Positions 45,221 through 57,911 of a DNA stretch of 64,000 nt are shown here, in pieces. Within the stretch, counting starts at the first letter, position 1; every line of letters starts with the position of its first letter. The notes below the pieces were generated by a model, which worked only from the letters and a program-made list of their open reading frames with translations, did no database searches and had not been told where the DNA came from. Source of the DNA: Atopobiaceae bacterium (GTDB taxonomy: Bacteria; Actinomycetota; Coriobacteriia; Coriobacteriales; Atopobiaceae); assembly GCA_022483015.1 (NCBI GenBank), contig JAKVOB010000001.1, positions 1,698,902 to 1,762,901 of the forward strand, given 5' to 3'. The position numbers and the translations under genes are program-made.

Positions 45221-45375
45221 CAGCCGCCCCGCCACTTGTCTTTTATACCAATACCAGTGCCTCGTCACCGAAGCCCTCGTACGAACGGCCGGAAAGCGGG
45301 CATATACCTCATCAAGGTCGTCTGTTGACGGCACCAAGAGGTGATGTCCGAACCCGTGTTGACGAGGAGGCGGTC

Positions 45376-45918
45376 GTGAGCGTTTTCGATACCGAGTCAC
45401 ATAACCATTTCCGGTGGGACAAGCTGGGAAACATAGAGGAGGGACGGGGCACCCTCGGCACCGAGATGCCCGTCGTGGCATATCGCATGCTCGAGTATGC
45501 GATGAACGACATCCTCCACCAGCATTATGGCGACGAGGGAGCCAACGAGCTTTGGATCGAGGCTGGGGCCCTTGCAGGGTCAGAGTTCGCCAAGAACGAG
45601 CTCGATCTCACGCTCGACCTCGCCCCGTTCGTGGCTCAGCTGCAGGCCAAGCTCAAGGACCTCAAGATCGGCTTGCTCCGCATCGAGGAGTTCGATGAGT
45701 CCGACGGCGCGTTCGTGCTGACCGTCGGAGAGGATCTTGACTGCTCGGGGTTGCCTCCCACCAACGAGGTCGTCTGCACGTGGGACGAAGGGTTCCTGGC
45801 GGGCATACTCAAGGCCTACACCGGCAAGGACTACGTATTCAAGGAGGTCGACTGCTGGGCGAACGGCGACCGGGTCTGTCGATTCAAGGGCGGCATAACG
45901 GCCGTACCTTCCGAGTGA
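45376..45918 (+). CDS. V4R-domain (4-vinyl reductase-like) ligand-binding protein
   Basis: 180 residues, cytoplasmic. The C-terminal half fits the V4R fold, a small-molecule sensing domain: TNEVVCTWDEGFLAGIL, YVFKEVDCWANGDRVCRFKG. Four cysteines (123, 134, 160, 168) are placed as in metal- or ligand-binding V4R proteins. The N-terminal part (HFRWDKLGNIEEGRGTLG; MLEYAMNDIL) resembles a dimerising H-NOX-like half. The start is GTG at 45376, 5 bases after GAGGAGG. A diguanylate cyclase gene follows after 15 bases, so this is probably the input partner of a two-gene signalling unit. The ligand is unknown. Confidence 0.8.
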   Translation: MSVFDTESHNHFRWDKLGNIEEGRGTLGTEMPVVAYRMLEYAMNDILHQHYGDEGANELWIEAGALAGSEFAKNELDLTLDLAPFVAQLQAKLKDLKIGLLRIEEFDESDGAFVLTVGEDLDCSGLPPTNEVVCTWDEGFLAGILKAYTGKDYVFKEVDCWANGDRVCRFKGGITAVPSE

Positions 45919-45933
45919 ACACCAAGAGGCAAC

Positions 45934-47193
45934 ATGGATGAGAAGACCGAGTCGCTCCTCATGGAGTACCTCAGGAATGTGATCTATGACCCACAGAAGG
46001 CCGAGCTGGACCTCGCCGAGCTGCCCCCATCGCATAGGCGCCTCGGCGAGGCACTCGTCTTCCTTGGCCAATGCGCCAAGGAAGACCGCTCGTTTGCCAA
46101 GGAGATCATGGCGGGCAACATCGACGTCAGGCCTCCGAGCATAGAGAACGGGCTTGCCGCCCCCATGAAGGAGATGCAGGGGATGCTCCGACACCTCCGC
46201 TGGCAGACACGAGAGATCGCCAAGGGGGACTATGACCAGAAGATCGACTACATGGGCGACATCGGCGAGGCGTTCAACCTCATGAGCGTGCAGCTCAAGG
46301 AGCGCCAGGACAGGCTCGTCCATGAGCGCCAGGTCTTGGAGGAGCAGAACCGCGAGCTCGACAACATGCAGCTCATGATCACCAACCTTGCCCTCGACGA
46401 GGCTCGCTTCATCGTCATCACCGACGAGTCCATGACCAAGGTCATCTTCCGCACGAACACGGCTCGCCAGTTCCGCGACAAGAACCTTGACCTGAGCGCC
46501 ATGCTCGACGGACACCTTGCGGATTGCCCCTCCTCGGTGCATGACCATATGGTGACCTGGGACATCGAAGAGCACACAGGCTCGGACGAGGACGCGAGGC
46601 ACTTCCATTACTCGATCAGGTCGTATCGCCTCCATTGGGAGGACGGCCACGCCATCGCGCATATGATCGTCAACGACACCGACGAGTTCGAGCGGCAGGC
46701 GGAGATGGAGCACCTGGCCTTCTCGGATGCCCTAACCAACCTCCATAACAGGCGCTATGCCATGCAGCTCGCAGCCTCCCTGCGAGAGAAGGGTCAGGCC
46801 TTCGCGCTCGCCTTCATCGACATCGACTATCTCAAGTACTGCAACGACGAGTTCGGCCATGAGGAAGGTGACCGCTACCTCGTCGCCTTGGCCCTGCTCC
46901 TGAAGACGCTTCCCGGCAAGTGCTCCGTCTGTCGCATCGGCGGCGACGAGTTCATGGTCCTCATGGAGGACTGGACGGCATCCGAGCTCACGCACCAACT
47001 CGAGAAGCTCCGACTGAGCTTCATGCAGCAGCCGGTACCGACGGGATACCTGTTCAAGCGCTCCTTCAGCTATGGGGTCGTCGGGATACTGCCTGATGAT
47101 GGCACCCCGCTCAGCGACTCGCTGGAGGAGGCCGACCAGCTCATGTATGCCTACAAGACCTCACACAAGAAGTTCCTCATACGAAGGCAGTGA
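45934..47193 (+). CDS. Soluble GGDEF diguanylate cyclase with HAMP-like and PAS-like regions
   Basis: 419 residues, no membrane helix. The N-terminal helical part (1-70) leads to a HAMP-like coiled segment (about 71-145, REIAKGDYDQKIDYMGDIGEAFN). A PAS-like region (about 150-250, EARFIVITDESMTKVIF) and a GGDEF domain (about 255-419) follow. Catalytic features are intact: FIDIDYLKYCNDEFGH binds metal and GTP, and RIGGDEF occupies 334-340. The RxxD inhibitory site expected five residues before GGDEF is absent, so product inhibition may be weak. AAGAGG precedes the ATG. Paired with the V4R gene upstream. No EAL, HD-GYP or PilZ gene is present in the window. Confidence 0.9.
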   Translation: MDEKTESLLMEYLRNVIYDPQKAELDLAELPPSHRRLGEALVFLGQCAKEDRSFAKEIMAGNIDVRPPSIENGLAAPMKEMQGMLRHLRWQTREIAKGDYDQKIDYMGDIGEAFNLMSVQLKERQDRLVHERQVLEEQNRELDNMQLMITNLALDEARFIVITDESMTKVIFRTNTARQFRDKNLDLSAMLDGHLADCPSSVHDHMVTWDIEEHTGSDEDARHFHYSIRSYRLHWEDGHAIAHMIVNDTDEFERQAEMEHLAFSDALTNLHNRRYAMQLAASLREKGQAFALAFIDIDYLKYCNDEFGHEEGDRYLVALALLLKTLPGKCSVCRIGGDEFMVLMEDWTASELTHQLEKLRLSFMQQPVPTGYLFKRSFSYGVVGILPDDGTPLSDSLEEADQLMYAYKTSHKKFLIRRQ

Positions 47194-52726: not shown

Positions 52727-55700
52727 CTATCGCAGGTTCCCCTTACGGACGAGTCGGAGCGCGAGGGCGAGGCCAAGCAGGACGATACCAACCCCCAGCA
52801 AGGACAGGGACATCCCCGACGTGTGGTCACCCGTCGACGGCGTGCCACCCGCAGGGACGGCCGTGGCCGCTGCCCCTGAGTTCGTTGACGTGGTGGCAGC
52901 CGACGTGCTCGGCATGGTATCTGTGGTGGCGGCCGGAGTGTTGGGGGTGTTGGGGGTGTCGGGGGTGTCGGGGGTGTCGGGGGTGTCGGGGGTGTCGGGG
53001 GTGTCGGGGGTGTCGGGGGTGTCGGGGGTGTCGGGGGTGTCGGGGGTGTCGGGGGTGTCGGGGGTCGTCGGCGCGACGTAAGTATTCGAGAAGGTCGCCA
53101 CCCCATCAGCGACGATCGCCCCCGTCGAGTCCGTGAGCGTGCTGCTCACGAGAACGACGGAGCCGCCGGTCTCGCCCACGACGACGGTCCAGGTGTAGGA
53201 CGCCGTGTCATATGTGTAGCCGGACGAGCTTCCCGCCGTCTCCGAGACCTTGAAGACATAGGTCCCCGGCTTCGTGAACGTGGCGGTCCCGAACGCGTTC
53301 TCGAGCGATCCGGCACCGGTCACCTGGGCGGTCGTGGCAAGCCCGGTCACGCCATCGGCAGGATTGCCCTTGTCGGCAGCCAACGCGAAGTCGAAGGTCT
53401 CGCTCGTGGTCGGCGAACCGGCAACGACCTTCTTCACGTCAGGCGAGGATGACGTCACCTTGGTCGCTCGGTAGACGTTCTCGAAGGTCGCGGTGTCGTT
53501 GGTGATGGCGTTGCCGTAGGAATCCTTCAGCGTGTTGCTCGTGACCGTCATCTGGCCATCTTTGTCTTCCACGACCACGGTCCACGTGTAGACCGTGTAG
53601 TCATCGATATAGCCCTCCTTGATGACCGAGCTCTCCCCGATGTAGTAGGTATACGTGCCCGCGCGGGAGAACGTGGCGGTGCCGAACGCCTTGGTAAGCG
53701 TCTCGTCGGCATGGATGGTCACCGCGGATTCATTCAGCCCGGTCTCGCCGCCTTTGGGATTGGCTTCATCGGGGAAGAGCGCGACCAGGAAGCTCGATGC
53801 CTCTGACGGCGTACCGTCGAGGATCTTCCTCACATCGGGAGAAACCTGCGTCGTGATATCGGGCTCATAGTCATTGGTGAACAGCATGGTGTCGGCTTCT
53901 GTGCCATCGGCAGTCGTCACCGTGCCCGTGGGCACCAGCTTGTTGCCAACGCTTGCTACCGTCACCCTCAGCGTATAGACGCTCTGGTCGTAGGAATACC
54001 CCGTGGTGCTCCCTAGCTCCTCGCTGATCTTGTAGACATAGATGCCCGGATTGACGTATTCAATCGACCCGAACGAGGCGGTACCGTTGCCAGTGACGGT
54101 GATGGTGGTGTCAGCTGGCAGGGGCGCACCAGCCGTGTCGGCCGCGATGGTGAACGTGAAGGTCCCGTCGCTGGGCGTCTCGCCCTCGACCACCTTCGTG
54201 ACGCCCGGCACCAGGTAGGGGTTGCTCGGCGCGGCATAAGTGTTTTCGAAGACGGCGACGCCGTCGTCTATGGAGGTCTGACCCTGGACGAGCGTGTTGC
54301 TCTTCACCGTCAGTTGGCCGCCCACGTCCTCGATGACGACGGTCCAGGTATATGAGTCTCCGTCGTAGGTCCAGCCGTCGCTCATGCCCGCGTACTCGAA
54401 GCACGTGAACGTGTAGGTGCCGGCCTTCGTAAACGTAGCGGTACCGAATGCGTTCTCGAGCGAGCCCGCACCGGTGGTCTGCGCGGTCGTAGCGAGCCCG
54501 GTGACGCCATCGGTCGGATTGTCGCCCGAGGGGATGAGCGCGTAGGTGAAGGTCTCATCGGAAGTCGGCGAACCGAGGACAGTCTTCTTCACACCGATGC
54601 TCGCGGCATCCACCGATTCGGGGGTGTACGTGTTCAGGAACAGTATCTGGTTCACCGGCACCGCCGAGGAGTCGGGCGTGTCCATATCGGTCTTCACCGC
54701 GAGTGACGTTGATGTGACCTCGAGGGAGTTGGTCGCGGAGTCAAGCGCCGTGGTCACCGTGTAAACGAAGACGGATGTGTCATAGCCATAGCCCGTCTCG
54801 CCGGAATACTCCTCGGAGATGTAGAACGTGTATGTGCCCGCTGCAGTGAAGGTGATGTCACCGAACGGCGTCTTGTTGGTGCCGGTGTCCGTGATGGTCG
54901 CAGTGGCCGGAGTGGGCAGTATGGCACCTGCTGGGTTCGACGCGCTTGCAGTCAAGTCGAACGTGAACGTCTTGTCGCTAGGACGCTCGGTTGCGGTGAA
55001 GAAGCTCTTCGTGATGGGCGGTACCGCCTGGGTTACGGTCGTGGTATCGACCAGCTTGAAGTTGTATGTGCCGAGGCTGACCGAACGGTCGTAGTAGGCC
55101 CACACGTCGAGCGCCGTCTTATCGCCGACCATATTTGTGTACTTCAGCGCCGTGCCAGACGTTGAGACGACGCCGCTGGTGGCGTCCACCTTGTCGGCGA
55201 CGGTCCAGTTCTTGTCGACCGTCCAAGGAGAAGTAGCATCGCCCGCATTCGAAGCGGAGTCGTTGTAGTAGACCGTTGCCTTCTGGTCGGTGGTGCCTTC
55301 ACCATTCAAACGGTTGACGATGATGCCGTTCTGGTTGTTCTCCACGTCCAGCAGCGGGAAGTGGATCTCGCCGCCTTTCAGCTTGACGGTCACGTTGGAT
55401 GTGTCATAGGTACCAGCGGACACCACGTTGCCCTTCGCATCCTTGCCATCCCAGGTGATTGAGTTCGTGGTGCCCTTTACCAGAGCATTGGAGAGCGTGA
55501 CGGTGTTATCGGTACCGAAGTTCAGCTCTATCTGATAGGAGGTCGCGGAGGTGTCGGAGGACGCATCGAACGAGAACGTGCCCCCGTAGCCCACGTAGCC
55601 TTCGTTCTCAGTGGCATCACCACTGCCTGTGAACTCGAAGTTGCTGATAGACCCGACGCCCGACGTGGGGCTTGTGGGGATGCCGAGCGCGGTGAGCGCT

Positions 55701-56857
55701 TCGGCGTCGGGCTCGTTGTAGAAGATCCAATACGACTGGTCGAGCGAGCTCGTCGAGGTGCCGCTCAGGGCCACATAGTGATTGGCGAGATCCGAGAGCT
55801 GATTGTTATCGGACTCGACGGAATGGTAGAGCGATGTCCCAGCTGATGTGTACTGGGTATTGAGGAGTCCGCGGTTATTGCACGTGAAGCGGAGTCCATA
55901 GGGGTCCATCCCGTTGAAGTTGACCTCGTACTGATAGCCATCTTTAGTGACCGGGTAGACCTTCGCCTTGAGCATGTCGGTGCCGGTCTTGTTGGTCCCC
56001 ATGTTAAGGAACAGCGCGTCGGTGAACACGCGGCCGGTCTTGAGGCTGCCGTCGGCAGCATAGACCGAGAGGTCCCAGGCGGCGATGGTGCTGTTCTTCT
56101 GGTCCCATGCCTCCGTCACCAGGGCAGGCACCGGATCGGTGGTGCCGTACTCCGTGCTGTAGAAGGCGATGGTGTAGATGCCTGACTGGCCGGCCGTGAA
56201 GGTGTTGCCTTCGTACTTCACGTCCGCCGCGACGCCCGCAGGCGAGGTGACGGCGCTCTCGGCAGCACAGGCATAGCCACCCGCCGCATGGTCCGCAGGA
56301 CCTGCCGCCTCCTGAGCGTGGTCAGAGATATAGCCCGCGGTGGAGGCGGACGCCGAGTCCGGGATGTCGATGAAGGTGACGCTGGCATCTCGCTGGCCGT
56401 TCACATAGGGCTCGGCATCAGGGTTGTTCGACGCATCCCAGCCGGGGGCACAGATGCATATGTCTGCATCGTTCAGGAAGTTCAGCTGGTCGTCCGAGAA
56501 GGAGGTGCCCATGCTGGTGTTGTCGAACAGGAAGTCCCCACCAATGGTCTTTCTCAGCTGGGCCGTGGACACGCTCGAACCCAGATAGAGCGTCTCGCCC
56601 TCTTCCAGGTAGACCTTCATGACGGACTGTCTCTTCACGCCCGCCGTCTCGGCACCGTAGCGCTCGGTATAGGCGCGATAGCCGCCATTCTCCGTGAGGT
56701 CGGAGCTACCCTCGGCATATGCCTTGGGCACGAGCAGGAGACCTGCCACAAGGGCCAGCACGAGGGCCAGCACGAACGACGGTAGCCGCACGCCACGACG
56801 CTTGCGAACGGGATGATGGGCTTGCATCGGCATGACGTGACCGGGGTATGTACGCAT
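52727..56857 (-). CDS. Large sortase-type surface protein with five pilin isopeptide-like domains
   Basis: 1376 residues. Signal peptide with a long basic N-region and hydrophobic core (RLPSFVLALVLALVAGLLLVPKAYA, shown in parts in the gene). The N-terminal half (about 50-640) is rich in beta structure and not matched to a named family. Five Spy0128-like domains follow, each starting with KKTVLGSP- or KVVEGETP-type strands, with GTYTF..E acceptor strands typical of intramolecular isopeptide bonds. A (Thr-Pro-Asp)n stalk leads to TPSTG, a hydrophobic helix and RKGNLR: a non-canonical LPXTG sorting signal. The ATG at 56857 has GAGGAG 7 bases upstream; an earlier in-frame start lies in the divergent promoter region. 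A pilus backbone or large adhesin is likely. Confidence 0.85.
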   Translation of the reverse strand: MRTYPGHVMPMQAHHPVRKRRGVRLPSFVLALVLALVAGLLLVPKAYAEGSSDLTENGGYRAYTERYGAETAGVKRQSVMKVYLEEGETLYLGSSVSTAQLRKTIGGDFLFDNTSMGTSFSDDQLNFLNDADICICAPGWDASNNPDAEPYVNGQRDASVTFIDIPDSASASTAGYISDHAQEAAGPADHAAGGYACAAESAVTSPAGVAADVKYEGNTFTAGQSGIYTIAFYSTEYGTTDPVPALVTEAWDQKNSTIAAWDLSVYAADGSLKTGRVFTDALFLNMGTNKTGTDMLKAKVYPVTKDGYQYEVNFNGMDPYGLRFTCNNRGLLNTQYTSAGTSLYHSVESDNNQLSDLANHYVALSGTSTSSLDQSYWIFYNEPDAEALTALGIPTSPTSGVGSISNFEFTGSGDATENEGYVGYGGTFSFDASSDTSATSYQIELNFGTDNTVTLSNALVKGTTNSITWDGKDAKGNVVSAGTYDTSNVTVKLKGGEIHFPLLDVENNQNGIIVNRLNGEGTTDQKATVYYNDSASNAGDATSPWTVDKNWTVADKVDATSGVVSTSGTALKYTNMVGDKTALDVWAYYDRSVSLGTYNFKLVDTTTVTQAVPPITKSFFTATERPSDKTFTFDLTASASNPAGAILPTPATATITDTGTNKTPFGDITFTAAGTYTFYISEEYSGETGYGYDTSVFVYTVTTALDSATNSLEVTSTSLAVKTDMDTPDSSAVPVNQILFLNTYTPESVDAASIGVKKTVLGSPTSDETFTYALIPSGDNPTDGVTGLATTAQTTGAGSLENAFGTATFTKAGTYTFTCFEYAGMSDGWTYDGDSYTWTVVIEDVGGQLTVKSNTLVQGQTSIDDGVAVFENTYAAPSNPYLVPGVTKVVEGETPSDGTFTFTIAADTAGAPLPADTTITVTGNGTASFGSIEYVNPGIYVYKISEELGSTTGYSYDQSVYTLRVTVASVGNKLVPTGTVTTADGTEADTMLFTNDYEPDITTQVSPDVRKILDGTPSEASSFLVALFPDEANPKGGETGLNESAVTIHADETLTKAFGTATFSRAGTYTYYIGESSVIKEGYIDDYTVYTWTVVVEDKDGQMTVTSNTLKDSYGNAITNDTATFENVYRATKVTSSSPDVKKVVAGSPTTSETFDFALAADKGNPADGVTGLATTAQVTGAGSLENAFGTATFTKPGTYVFKVSETAGSSSGYTYDTASYTWTVVVGETGGSVVLVSSTLTDSTGAIVADGVATFSNTYVAPTTPDTPDTPDTPDTPDTPDTPDTPDTPDTPDTPDTPDTPNTPNTPAATTDTMPSTSAATTSTNSGAAATAVPAGGTPSTGDHTSGMSLSLLGVGIVLLGLALALRLVRKGNLR
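52938..53063 (-). repeat. 9-bp minisatellite encoding a Thr-Pro-Asp stalk
   Basis: Fourteen head-to-tail 9-base units: two GTGTTGGGG then twelve GTGTCGGGG (plus-strand spelling). On the coding strand they give Pro-Asn-Thr and Pro-Asp-Thr triplets in the wall-spanning region of the surface protein. Unit length is a multiple of three, so copy-number change alters stalk length without a frameshift. Confidence 0.95.
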
Positions 56858-56891
56858 CGCCGTACTCCTCACACTCGGCTCATTTGATTGA

Positions 56892-56897
56892 AGTATA
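56892..56897 (-). promoter_or_regulatory. Possible -10 element for the pilin-like surface gene
   Basis: The minus strand reads TATACT 35 bases upstream of the ATG at 56857, in an A/T-rich patch shared with the divergent esterase gene. No clear -35 was found. Confidence 0.3.
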
Positions 56898-56981
56898 GGA
56901 TGTTTTAAGCAACGCCACGCCGACAGGCCTGCAAACGGCAGGACGGCTCGGCCATGGCGTGACGGAACCCAGGAGGCGCCC

Positions 56982-57911
56982 ATGGGCCTGCTCTATGAGA
57001 TCGCATCCACGCCAGCGGTCTATGCGATGCCTGCCTACTATGACCGGCACGAGCCGCGACGCGACCATGGACCCATACGGGTCGACTTCGGCCCCGACCG
57101 CCTGCAGCACAGCCTCATCTGGGAGCCCTCGCAGGTGACCCACGACACCGTGGTCATGTGGTTCCATGGGGGTGGCTATGTCGTGGGCACGGCCGAGAGC
57201 ATGCAGGATGCCGCCAACGTGTACAACGCGATGGGGTACCGGTTCGTCTCGGTAGGGTTCCGCCTGGTTCCTGCCGACCGCGTCCCCGCACAGGTGGAGG
57301 ACGCCTTCCTCGGCGTGAGCGCCGCCATGGGCTGGCTCAGCGACCATGGCCGGCCATGCGAGAGGATCGTGGTGGGCGGCAGCTCGGCGGGAGGGTTCAG
57401 CGCCGCCATCCTGGCATACAGCAAGGACCTCCAGGCACGCTATGGCCTCGATGCGGAGAAGCTCGCAGGATACGTCTCGTGCGCGGCGGTCCTCGACGCT
57501 GACGACTTCTTCGTGAACCCCTTCCCGTCGGGCGCCGTCGGGCTCGCCGCCACGAGGGCCTTCCTCGACATGGATGCGCTCGACCCCACACGGACGCTCT
57601 CGACGCACGAGGCCCTGCTCCCCTACTCGCCCGTCGCGCTTCTCGAGACGTGGGACATGGGGGACGGAAGGCACCCCGTACCGTACTATGGCGTCCACGG
57701 CACCCACGACACGGCGAGTCCCTATGCCACCGAGGCCACCTTCGCCCACGAGCTCGCACATGTCTCAGGCCGTGGCGCGGCGACGCTCTGCACCGTCGAC
57801 AGGCCGAGCTGGCAGCACATGGTGACCACGGTCACGATGCACAAGCGACGCGTCGAGACAGACCCCGTGCTGCGGGGACTCTTTGCCTGGCTGCAGGCCA
57901 TCGGCGACTAG
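56982..57911 (+). CDS. Alpha/beta hydrolase, HSL/esterase-lipase family
   Basis: 309 residues, cytoplasmic (no signal peptide). The oxyanion-hole motif HGGG is at residues 62-65, the nucleophile elbow GGSSAGG has Ser135, and late HGTHD and W-Q-H segments offer the acid and His of the triad. This matches the hormone-sensitive-lipase-like family of short-chain esterases. AGGAGG lies 5 bases before the ATG. It is divergent from the surface protein and convergent with metK, apparently monocistronic. The natural substrate is not predictable. Confidence 0.88.
   Translation: MGLLYEIASTPAVYAMPAYYDRHEPRRDHGPIRVDFGPDRLQHSLIWEPSQVTHDTVVMWFHGGGYVVGTAESMQDAANVYNAMGYRFVSVGFRLVPADRVPAQVEDAFLGVSAAMGWLSDHGRPCERIVVGGSSAGGFSAAILAYSKDLQARYGLDAEKLAGYVSCAAVLDADDFFVNPFPSGAVGLAATRAFLDMDALDPTRTLSTHEALLPYSPVALLETWDMGDGRHPVPYYGVHGTHDTASPYATEATFAHELAHVSGRGAATLCTVDRPSWQHMVTTVTMHKRRVETDPVLRGLFAWLQAIGD

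Follow-up and report, generated by a model that had tools for sequence, protein, structure and literature searches.

Organization of the V4R-cyclase locus

The window analyzed here is a 64,000-nucleotide stretch of DNA from an Atopobiaceae bacterium, in which a gene encoding a V4R protein was followed by one encoding a diguanylate cyclase (Table 1). Exactly 15 nt separated the V4R stop codon from the cyclase ATG. The initial annotation, made from the sequence alone, had described a stand-alone V4R protein with four cysteines next to a soluble cyclase, and this description was borne out by the open reading frames, the Pfam matches, and the lack of a transmembrane stretch.

Table 1. Features of the V4R-cyclase locus (window coordinates).
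Feature	Position	Strand	Details
Shine-Dalgarno-like GAGGAGG before V4R gene	45364..45370	+	sequence
V4R gene	45376..45918	+	GTG start at 45376, stop 45916-45918; 180 aa; stand-alone
C123 of V4R	45742..45744	+	extra cysteine outside the zinc-ligand set; alignment of relatives
Predicted zinc site of V4R	45775..45879	+	C134 (45775-45777), E157 (45844-45846), C160 (45853-45855), C168 (45877-45879)
Shine-Dalgarno-like AAGAGG before cyclase gene	45924..45929	+	sequence
Soluble diguanylate cyclase (DGC) gene	45934..47193	+	ATG start, stop 47191-47193; 419 aa; PF00990; no transmembrane stretch
NMOD, V4R-associated N-terminal module	45937..46329	+	residues 2-132; helical, HAMP-like end (85-122); profile A5
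PAS-like domain of cyclase	46396..46674	+	about residues 155-247; least conserved part; alpha/beta in model
GGDEF domain of cyclase	46717..47169	+	residues 262-412; motif at 46939-46953; no RxxD I-site

Fold and cysteine site of the V4R protein

Pfam assigned the protein to V4R (PF02830, E 5e-15, 55.8 bits versus a cut-off of 31) and not to HNOB, while its best NCBIfam match was MsvR (47 bits versus a cut-off of 220). A whole-genome profile search identified it as the only V4R match in its own 2.28-Mb genome. The AlphaFold model (pLDDT 88.6) showed a V4R/Bet3 fold; in the fold search, its nearest neighbors were the sensor domains of MopR, PoxR, and DmpR (Z about 15-16; MopR 15.8), followed by Bet3 (Z 14) and MJ1460 (Z 13.8) and, more distantly, by H-NOX and soluble guanylate cyclase (Z about 9).

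In a DmpR structure, zinc is held by three cysteines and one glutamate (PMC7264223). Because the glutamate number given there mismatches the PoxR/MopR spacing, the zinc ligands were taken from the alignment with PoxR and MopR, in which C134, E157, C160, and C168 coincided with conserved C/E/C/C positions; by sequence alignment, these positions of MopR-type V4R zinc sensors were both aligned and invariant. The four cysteines of the window protein (C123, C134, C160, and C168) were invariant in 65/65 aligned V4R relatives, a figure that is partly built in for C123 and C134, since both belonged to the pattern used for the named-genome scan described below. C123 was missing in a divergent fused member (L174) and C160 in a divergent paired member (L207). 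The window V4R is thus predicted to carry a MopR-type zinc site. The phenol-pocket tryptophan of MopR, PoxR, and DmpR aligned with an aliphatic residue.

Heme had been put forward in the initial annotation as a possible ligand. No histidine was invariant among the V4R family: the best candidate, H9, was present in 73/82 members and lay within the weakly predicted N-terminus, and H48 and H50 showed no conservation. The YxSxR motif was also missing from the window V4R sequence. Heme was dropped as the leading reading because both an invariant histidine and YxSxR were missing, and the alignments make a MopR-type zinc site the better reading.

The cyclase and its N-terminal module

The cyclase matched PF00990 with an E value of 3.6e-26, and its GGDEF motif occupied residues 336-340. 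D296, D298, N304, D305, D338, and E339 were invariant in 61/61 aligned cyclases, of which 59 carried GGDEF, one GGDEY, and one SGDEF as the active-site motif. With its catalytic motif intact, the window cyclase should make c-di-GMP. An RxxD I-site, expected five residues ahead of GGDEF, was found in 0/61 of these cyclases, and the window protein has PGKC in its place, confirming the absence of an I-site noted at the outset. No transmembrane stretch was detected in the window cyclase (maximum 19-residue Kyte-Doolittle mean, 1.43).

The proposed HAMP-like/PAS-like/GGDEF architecture was secure for GGDEF and needed qualification for the rest. The PF00672 HAMP match at residues 85-122 scored 22.8 bits, below the cut-off of 25, and is therefore described as HAMP-like only; HAMP matches at E up to 1e-3 were obtained in 40/61 family members. 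PAS gave no Pfam match in the window cyclase, and a PAS-like alpha/beta domain appeared in the structure model. The region upstream, termed NMOD, was modeled together with the following stalk as helices at residues 3-18, 32-59, 73-96, and 108-154. A repeated AKGD[LY] hinted at two tandem HAMP units, an idea that was dropped when a profile comparison of the two halves did not support it. The PDB matches of NMOD, mostly designed coiled coils, were judged to be composition matches.

Cyclic di-GMP components in the same genome

Eleven GGDEF matches and one MshEN domain were found in the genome. EAL matches occurred elsewhere in it and none near the V4R-cyclase pair, and the whole-genome profile search gave no PilZ match, so that the original statement that neither lies nearby held. 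A search for c-di-GMP-I riboswitches gave no match in the genome, with the controls equally silent. MshEN, the c-di-GMP-binding domain of a type IV pilus ATPase, is a possible c-di-GMP output in this genome, which has no PilZ match.

Two further loci and one gene in the window deserve mention. At G000:C1:2123366-2124044, an EAL domain was split over two frames (the end of a 624-aa frame, then a 187-aa frame) beside a weak GGDEF match, and is probably a frameshifted GGDEF-EAL gene. At G000:C1:1265879-1280463, a 2,238-aa frame with two GGDEF domains and one EAL domain lay about 8 kb from MshEN. Within the window, the minus strand at 52727-56983 encoded a surface protein of 1,418 aa in which Cna/SpaA-like units are repeated and a (TPDTPD)n stretch precedes a sorting-signal-like end.

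Conservation of the gene pair

Among 60 relatives, four genomes contained V4R, the present one included, and the cyclase adjoined it in 4/4. Conservation across Coriobacteriia had been suggested as a check; the module was present in the class but rare (3/298 genomes of the sample), and it recurred well outside it. A scan of named genomes covering 84,980 species, which favors close relatives of the query, returned 178 relatives, from which 80 loci were retained. These spanned Actinomycetota, Bacillota, Synergistota, Pseudomonadota, and Thermodesulfobacteriota, among others. Many of them are metagenome bins, and binning errors may have entered the taxonomic labels and the apparent mixing of phyla; one cultured carrier is Blautia schinkii DSM 10518 (L031). 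Counting related genomes, which are non-independent observations, a partner was directly downstream or fused at 77/78 evaluable loci, with a median gap of 39 nt. The 80 loci comprised 75 with a complete separate downstream partner, one fusion (L067), one partner truncated by a contig end (L092), two loci ending at a contig edge (L050 and L064), and one without a partner (L047). The long ORF of L047 was considered as a V4R fusion and dropped as a frame artefact over another gene.

The bias toward relatives of the query was countered by an order-wide scan, in which the generic Pfam V4R model was run against 392 genomes of the order containing Blautia schinkii. Here, 27 of the 31 V4R genes above the cut-off adjoined or were fused to the module, two with a gap of 0.5-0.7 kb. 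The exceptions were one truncated by a contig end, with the module right at the beginning of a different contig (L170), two V4R genes of genome G376 lying apart from its NMOD-cyclase gene, and a gene of another V4R family (L147, 33 bits). V4R and NMOD occurred together in 29 genomes, V4R only in one, NMOD only in four, and neither in 358 (Fisher p 2e-38, relatedness ignored). In G666, which was counted as NMOD-only, a divergent V4R gene sits directly upstream of the NMOD gene. NMOD without an adjoining V4R gene was found in G265 and G017 of Coriobacteriia and in G354, G424, and G524 of the order-wide set, indicating that NMOD does not strictly need V4R.

V4R-partner adjacency greatly exceeds chance and is by no means unique to this strain. 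The split module proposed in the initial annotation is conserved as a unit, and its impression that no such system had been described was shared by our literature search, which covered few subscription journals and yielded no description of V4R paired with GGDEF.

Other arrangements were also observed. At L176:621-3936 in G376, the last 20 nt of a gene for a 933-aa PAS-GGDEF protein are shared with a V4R gene. The C-terminal part of the PAS-GGDEF protein is HD-GYP-like, and the NMOD-cyclase gene of this genome is elsewhere (L208); this may represent a further class of V4R partner. A Synergistaceae locus carried, besides its first V4R-cyclase pair, a second and divergent one (L086:839-2776), encoded on the other strand at a distance of about 2.2 kb. 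L204 and L205 contain near kin of the L207 cyclase gene without the divergent V4R gene that is directly upstream in L207.

Fusions and exchange of output domains

NMOD, the transmembrane-free, HAMP-containing first ~130 residues, was found in 77/77 separate partners, followed by GGDEF in 65 and by a hybrid histidine kinase in 12. The kinase partners, that of L081 among them, had PAS or GAF and then HisKA-HATPase-REC after NMOD. The view of the pair as a c-di-GMP input module fits the cyclase partners and is too narrow for the 12 kinase loci, which bear the same NMOD. Since the kinase partners keep this NMOD, the constant unit is V4R plus NMOD, and the output is swappable. A PAS-like linker was present in 58 of the 65 DGC partners and missing from seven, all with NMOD, so that PAS is dispensable.

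V4R, NMOD, and an output were joined in one ORF at three loci as counted here: L159 (613 aa, complete), L174 (526 aa, divergent), and L067/L149 (one sequence, ending at a contig end). V4R was the most conserved part of the system, with a mean pairwise distance of 0.31, compared with 0.47 for NMOD, 0.52 for GGDEF, and 0.70 for the PAS-like domain. Mirror-tree correlations of V4R were 0.85 with GGDEF and 0.73 with NMOD, which shows co-inheritance of V4R and partner and does not mark NMOD as the contact. On the V4R tree, output swaps required five changes, of which well-supported branches force only one, and phyla were mixed (14 changes versus a minimum of five).

A model for V4R signaling

We consider it likely that the window pair is one split signaling device, in which a V4R sensor acts through NMOD on the output enzyme. 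The sensor would be a zinc-stabilized, probably dimeric MopR/Bet3-like fold whose input may be a small ligand, thiol chemistry, or both. V4R would dock onto the partner's transmembrane-free, HAMP-containing NMOD, whose helices would pack differently upon docking or upon binding of the ligand. Through the stalk (residues 108-154) and then the PAS-like domain, this change would reach the GGDEF dimer and raise or lower c-di-GMP synthesis. Because the cyclase has no I-site, product inhibition through RxxD would not operate, and V4R would be its main brake or throttle. Elsewhere, the same V4R-NMOD input would drive a hybrid histidine kinase. The physical complex, the bound zinc, and regulation in trans, together with its sign and ligand, are what we infer from sequence and models.

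As for the input, a tentative and on balance doubtful version of this model holds that V4R is a redox or thiol sensor whose partner is switched when C123 or the zinc cysteines become oxidized, in the manner of oxidized H-NOX and MsvR. It draws on the invariance of the four cysteines in 65/65 relatives and on hosts that belong mostly to groups of anaerobes; moreover, the V4R cysteines of MsvR are redox-active (PMC3729527), and H-NOX can signal to a kinase by zinc-cysteine oxidation (PMC12329717). However, the scan selected on C123 and C134, and the divergent paired members L174 and L207 do without C123 and C160, respectively.

The rival hardest to exclude is a purely structural one, in which V4R senses nothing and serves as a scaffold or obligate subunit for folding, stability, or placement of the cyclase. 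Tight pairing and fusions would be seen equally with a sensor and with an obligate subunit, and among the proteins related to V4R, Bet3/TRAPP and BcsD serve as structural subunits. We nevertheless regard this role as improbable, since V4R has the MopR-type cysteine site of known ligand sensors, and NMOD enzymes without a V4R neighbor exist, implying that V4R is unneeded for the persistence of NMOD-GGDEF. Very unlikely is a heme-based gas sensor acting as a functional copy of H-NOX: it is favored by the relatedness of the fold to those of H-NOX and soluble guanylate cyclase and by the identical operon logic, but neither an invariant histidine nor YxSxR was found. Least probable is that horizontal transfer left the two genes hitch-hiking in one operon without any direct link in function, for although the mixing of phyla on the V4R tree shows the pair acting like a mobile cassette, at least two separate-looking fusions, the constant gene order, and a constant NMOD with changing outputs argue against it.

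The split sensor device thus remains the preferred reading, and the V4R-enzyme pair is very probably a widespread, undescribed two-protein sensing switch shared by anaerobes from five or more phyla. With more reserve, we favor the broader proposal that V4R plus NMOD constitutes an undescribed, horizontally spread class of trans-acting sensors in anaerobes, in which a stand-alone zinc/cysteine V4R plugs into a soluble, HAMP-containing socket of cyclases and hybrid kinases, following H-NOX-like logic with a possibly non-heme (redox or small-molecule) input. To our knowledge, few bacterial sensors control two or more classes of output enzyme in trans. The familiar example, H-NOX, is linked to the sensing of gases by heme, and V4R-NMOD appears to be a second example with a different chemistry.

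Gut and other anaerobes carry the pair, and little is known of the c-di-GMP inputs of these organisms; V4R is an obvious candidate controller for a cyclase without the RxxD feedback site. The model would give a concrete function to many proteins annotated as "V4R domain protein" and predicts a missing subunit for many orphan-looking soluble cyclases. Natural fusions and output swaps provide material for testing V4R signaling.

Comparison with known systems

H-NOX proteins work with HnoK, a histidine kinase, or with HaCE, the H-NOX-associated c-di-GMP enzyme; like V4R, they are stand-alone sensors of related fold (Z about 9) with a kinase or c-di-GMP partner. We know of no HAMP-containing NMOD in H-NOX partners. 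The hnox gene adjoins its kinase gene, and H-NOX controls a kinase or a c-di-GMP enzyme (PMC12329717); at the V4R loci, the sensor gene likewise adjoins a gene for a c-di-GMP enzyme or a histidine kinase. In contrast to H-NOX, V4R has a predicted MopR-type cysteine site and no heme histidine, and the window protein does not contain an HNOB domain with a proximal histidine and YxSxR. Because the domain is V4R rather than HNOB and the heme determinants are absent, the pair is not a member of the H-NOX system.

MopR, PoxR, and DmpR have the closest fold (Z about 15-16) and the same C-E-C-C zinc-ligand pattern; their V4R domain is fused to an AAA+ sigma54 activator, whereas the window V4R is a separate protein and the partners are cyclases or kinases. 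MsvR likewise contains V4R with conserved cysteines and is redox-responsive (PMC3729527). It is a DNA-binding regulator of methanogens, whereas the window pair has no DNA-binding domain. In the SiaC-SiaD system, the small protein SiaC does not belong to V4R and its switch is phosphorylation, whereas SiaD is not known to contain NMOD or PAS. Like the pair described here, SiaC-SiaD combines a soluble cyclase with a separate small protein, which in that system is activating, and its structure (7e6g) was matched in the fold search.
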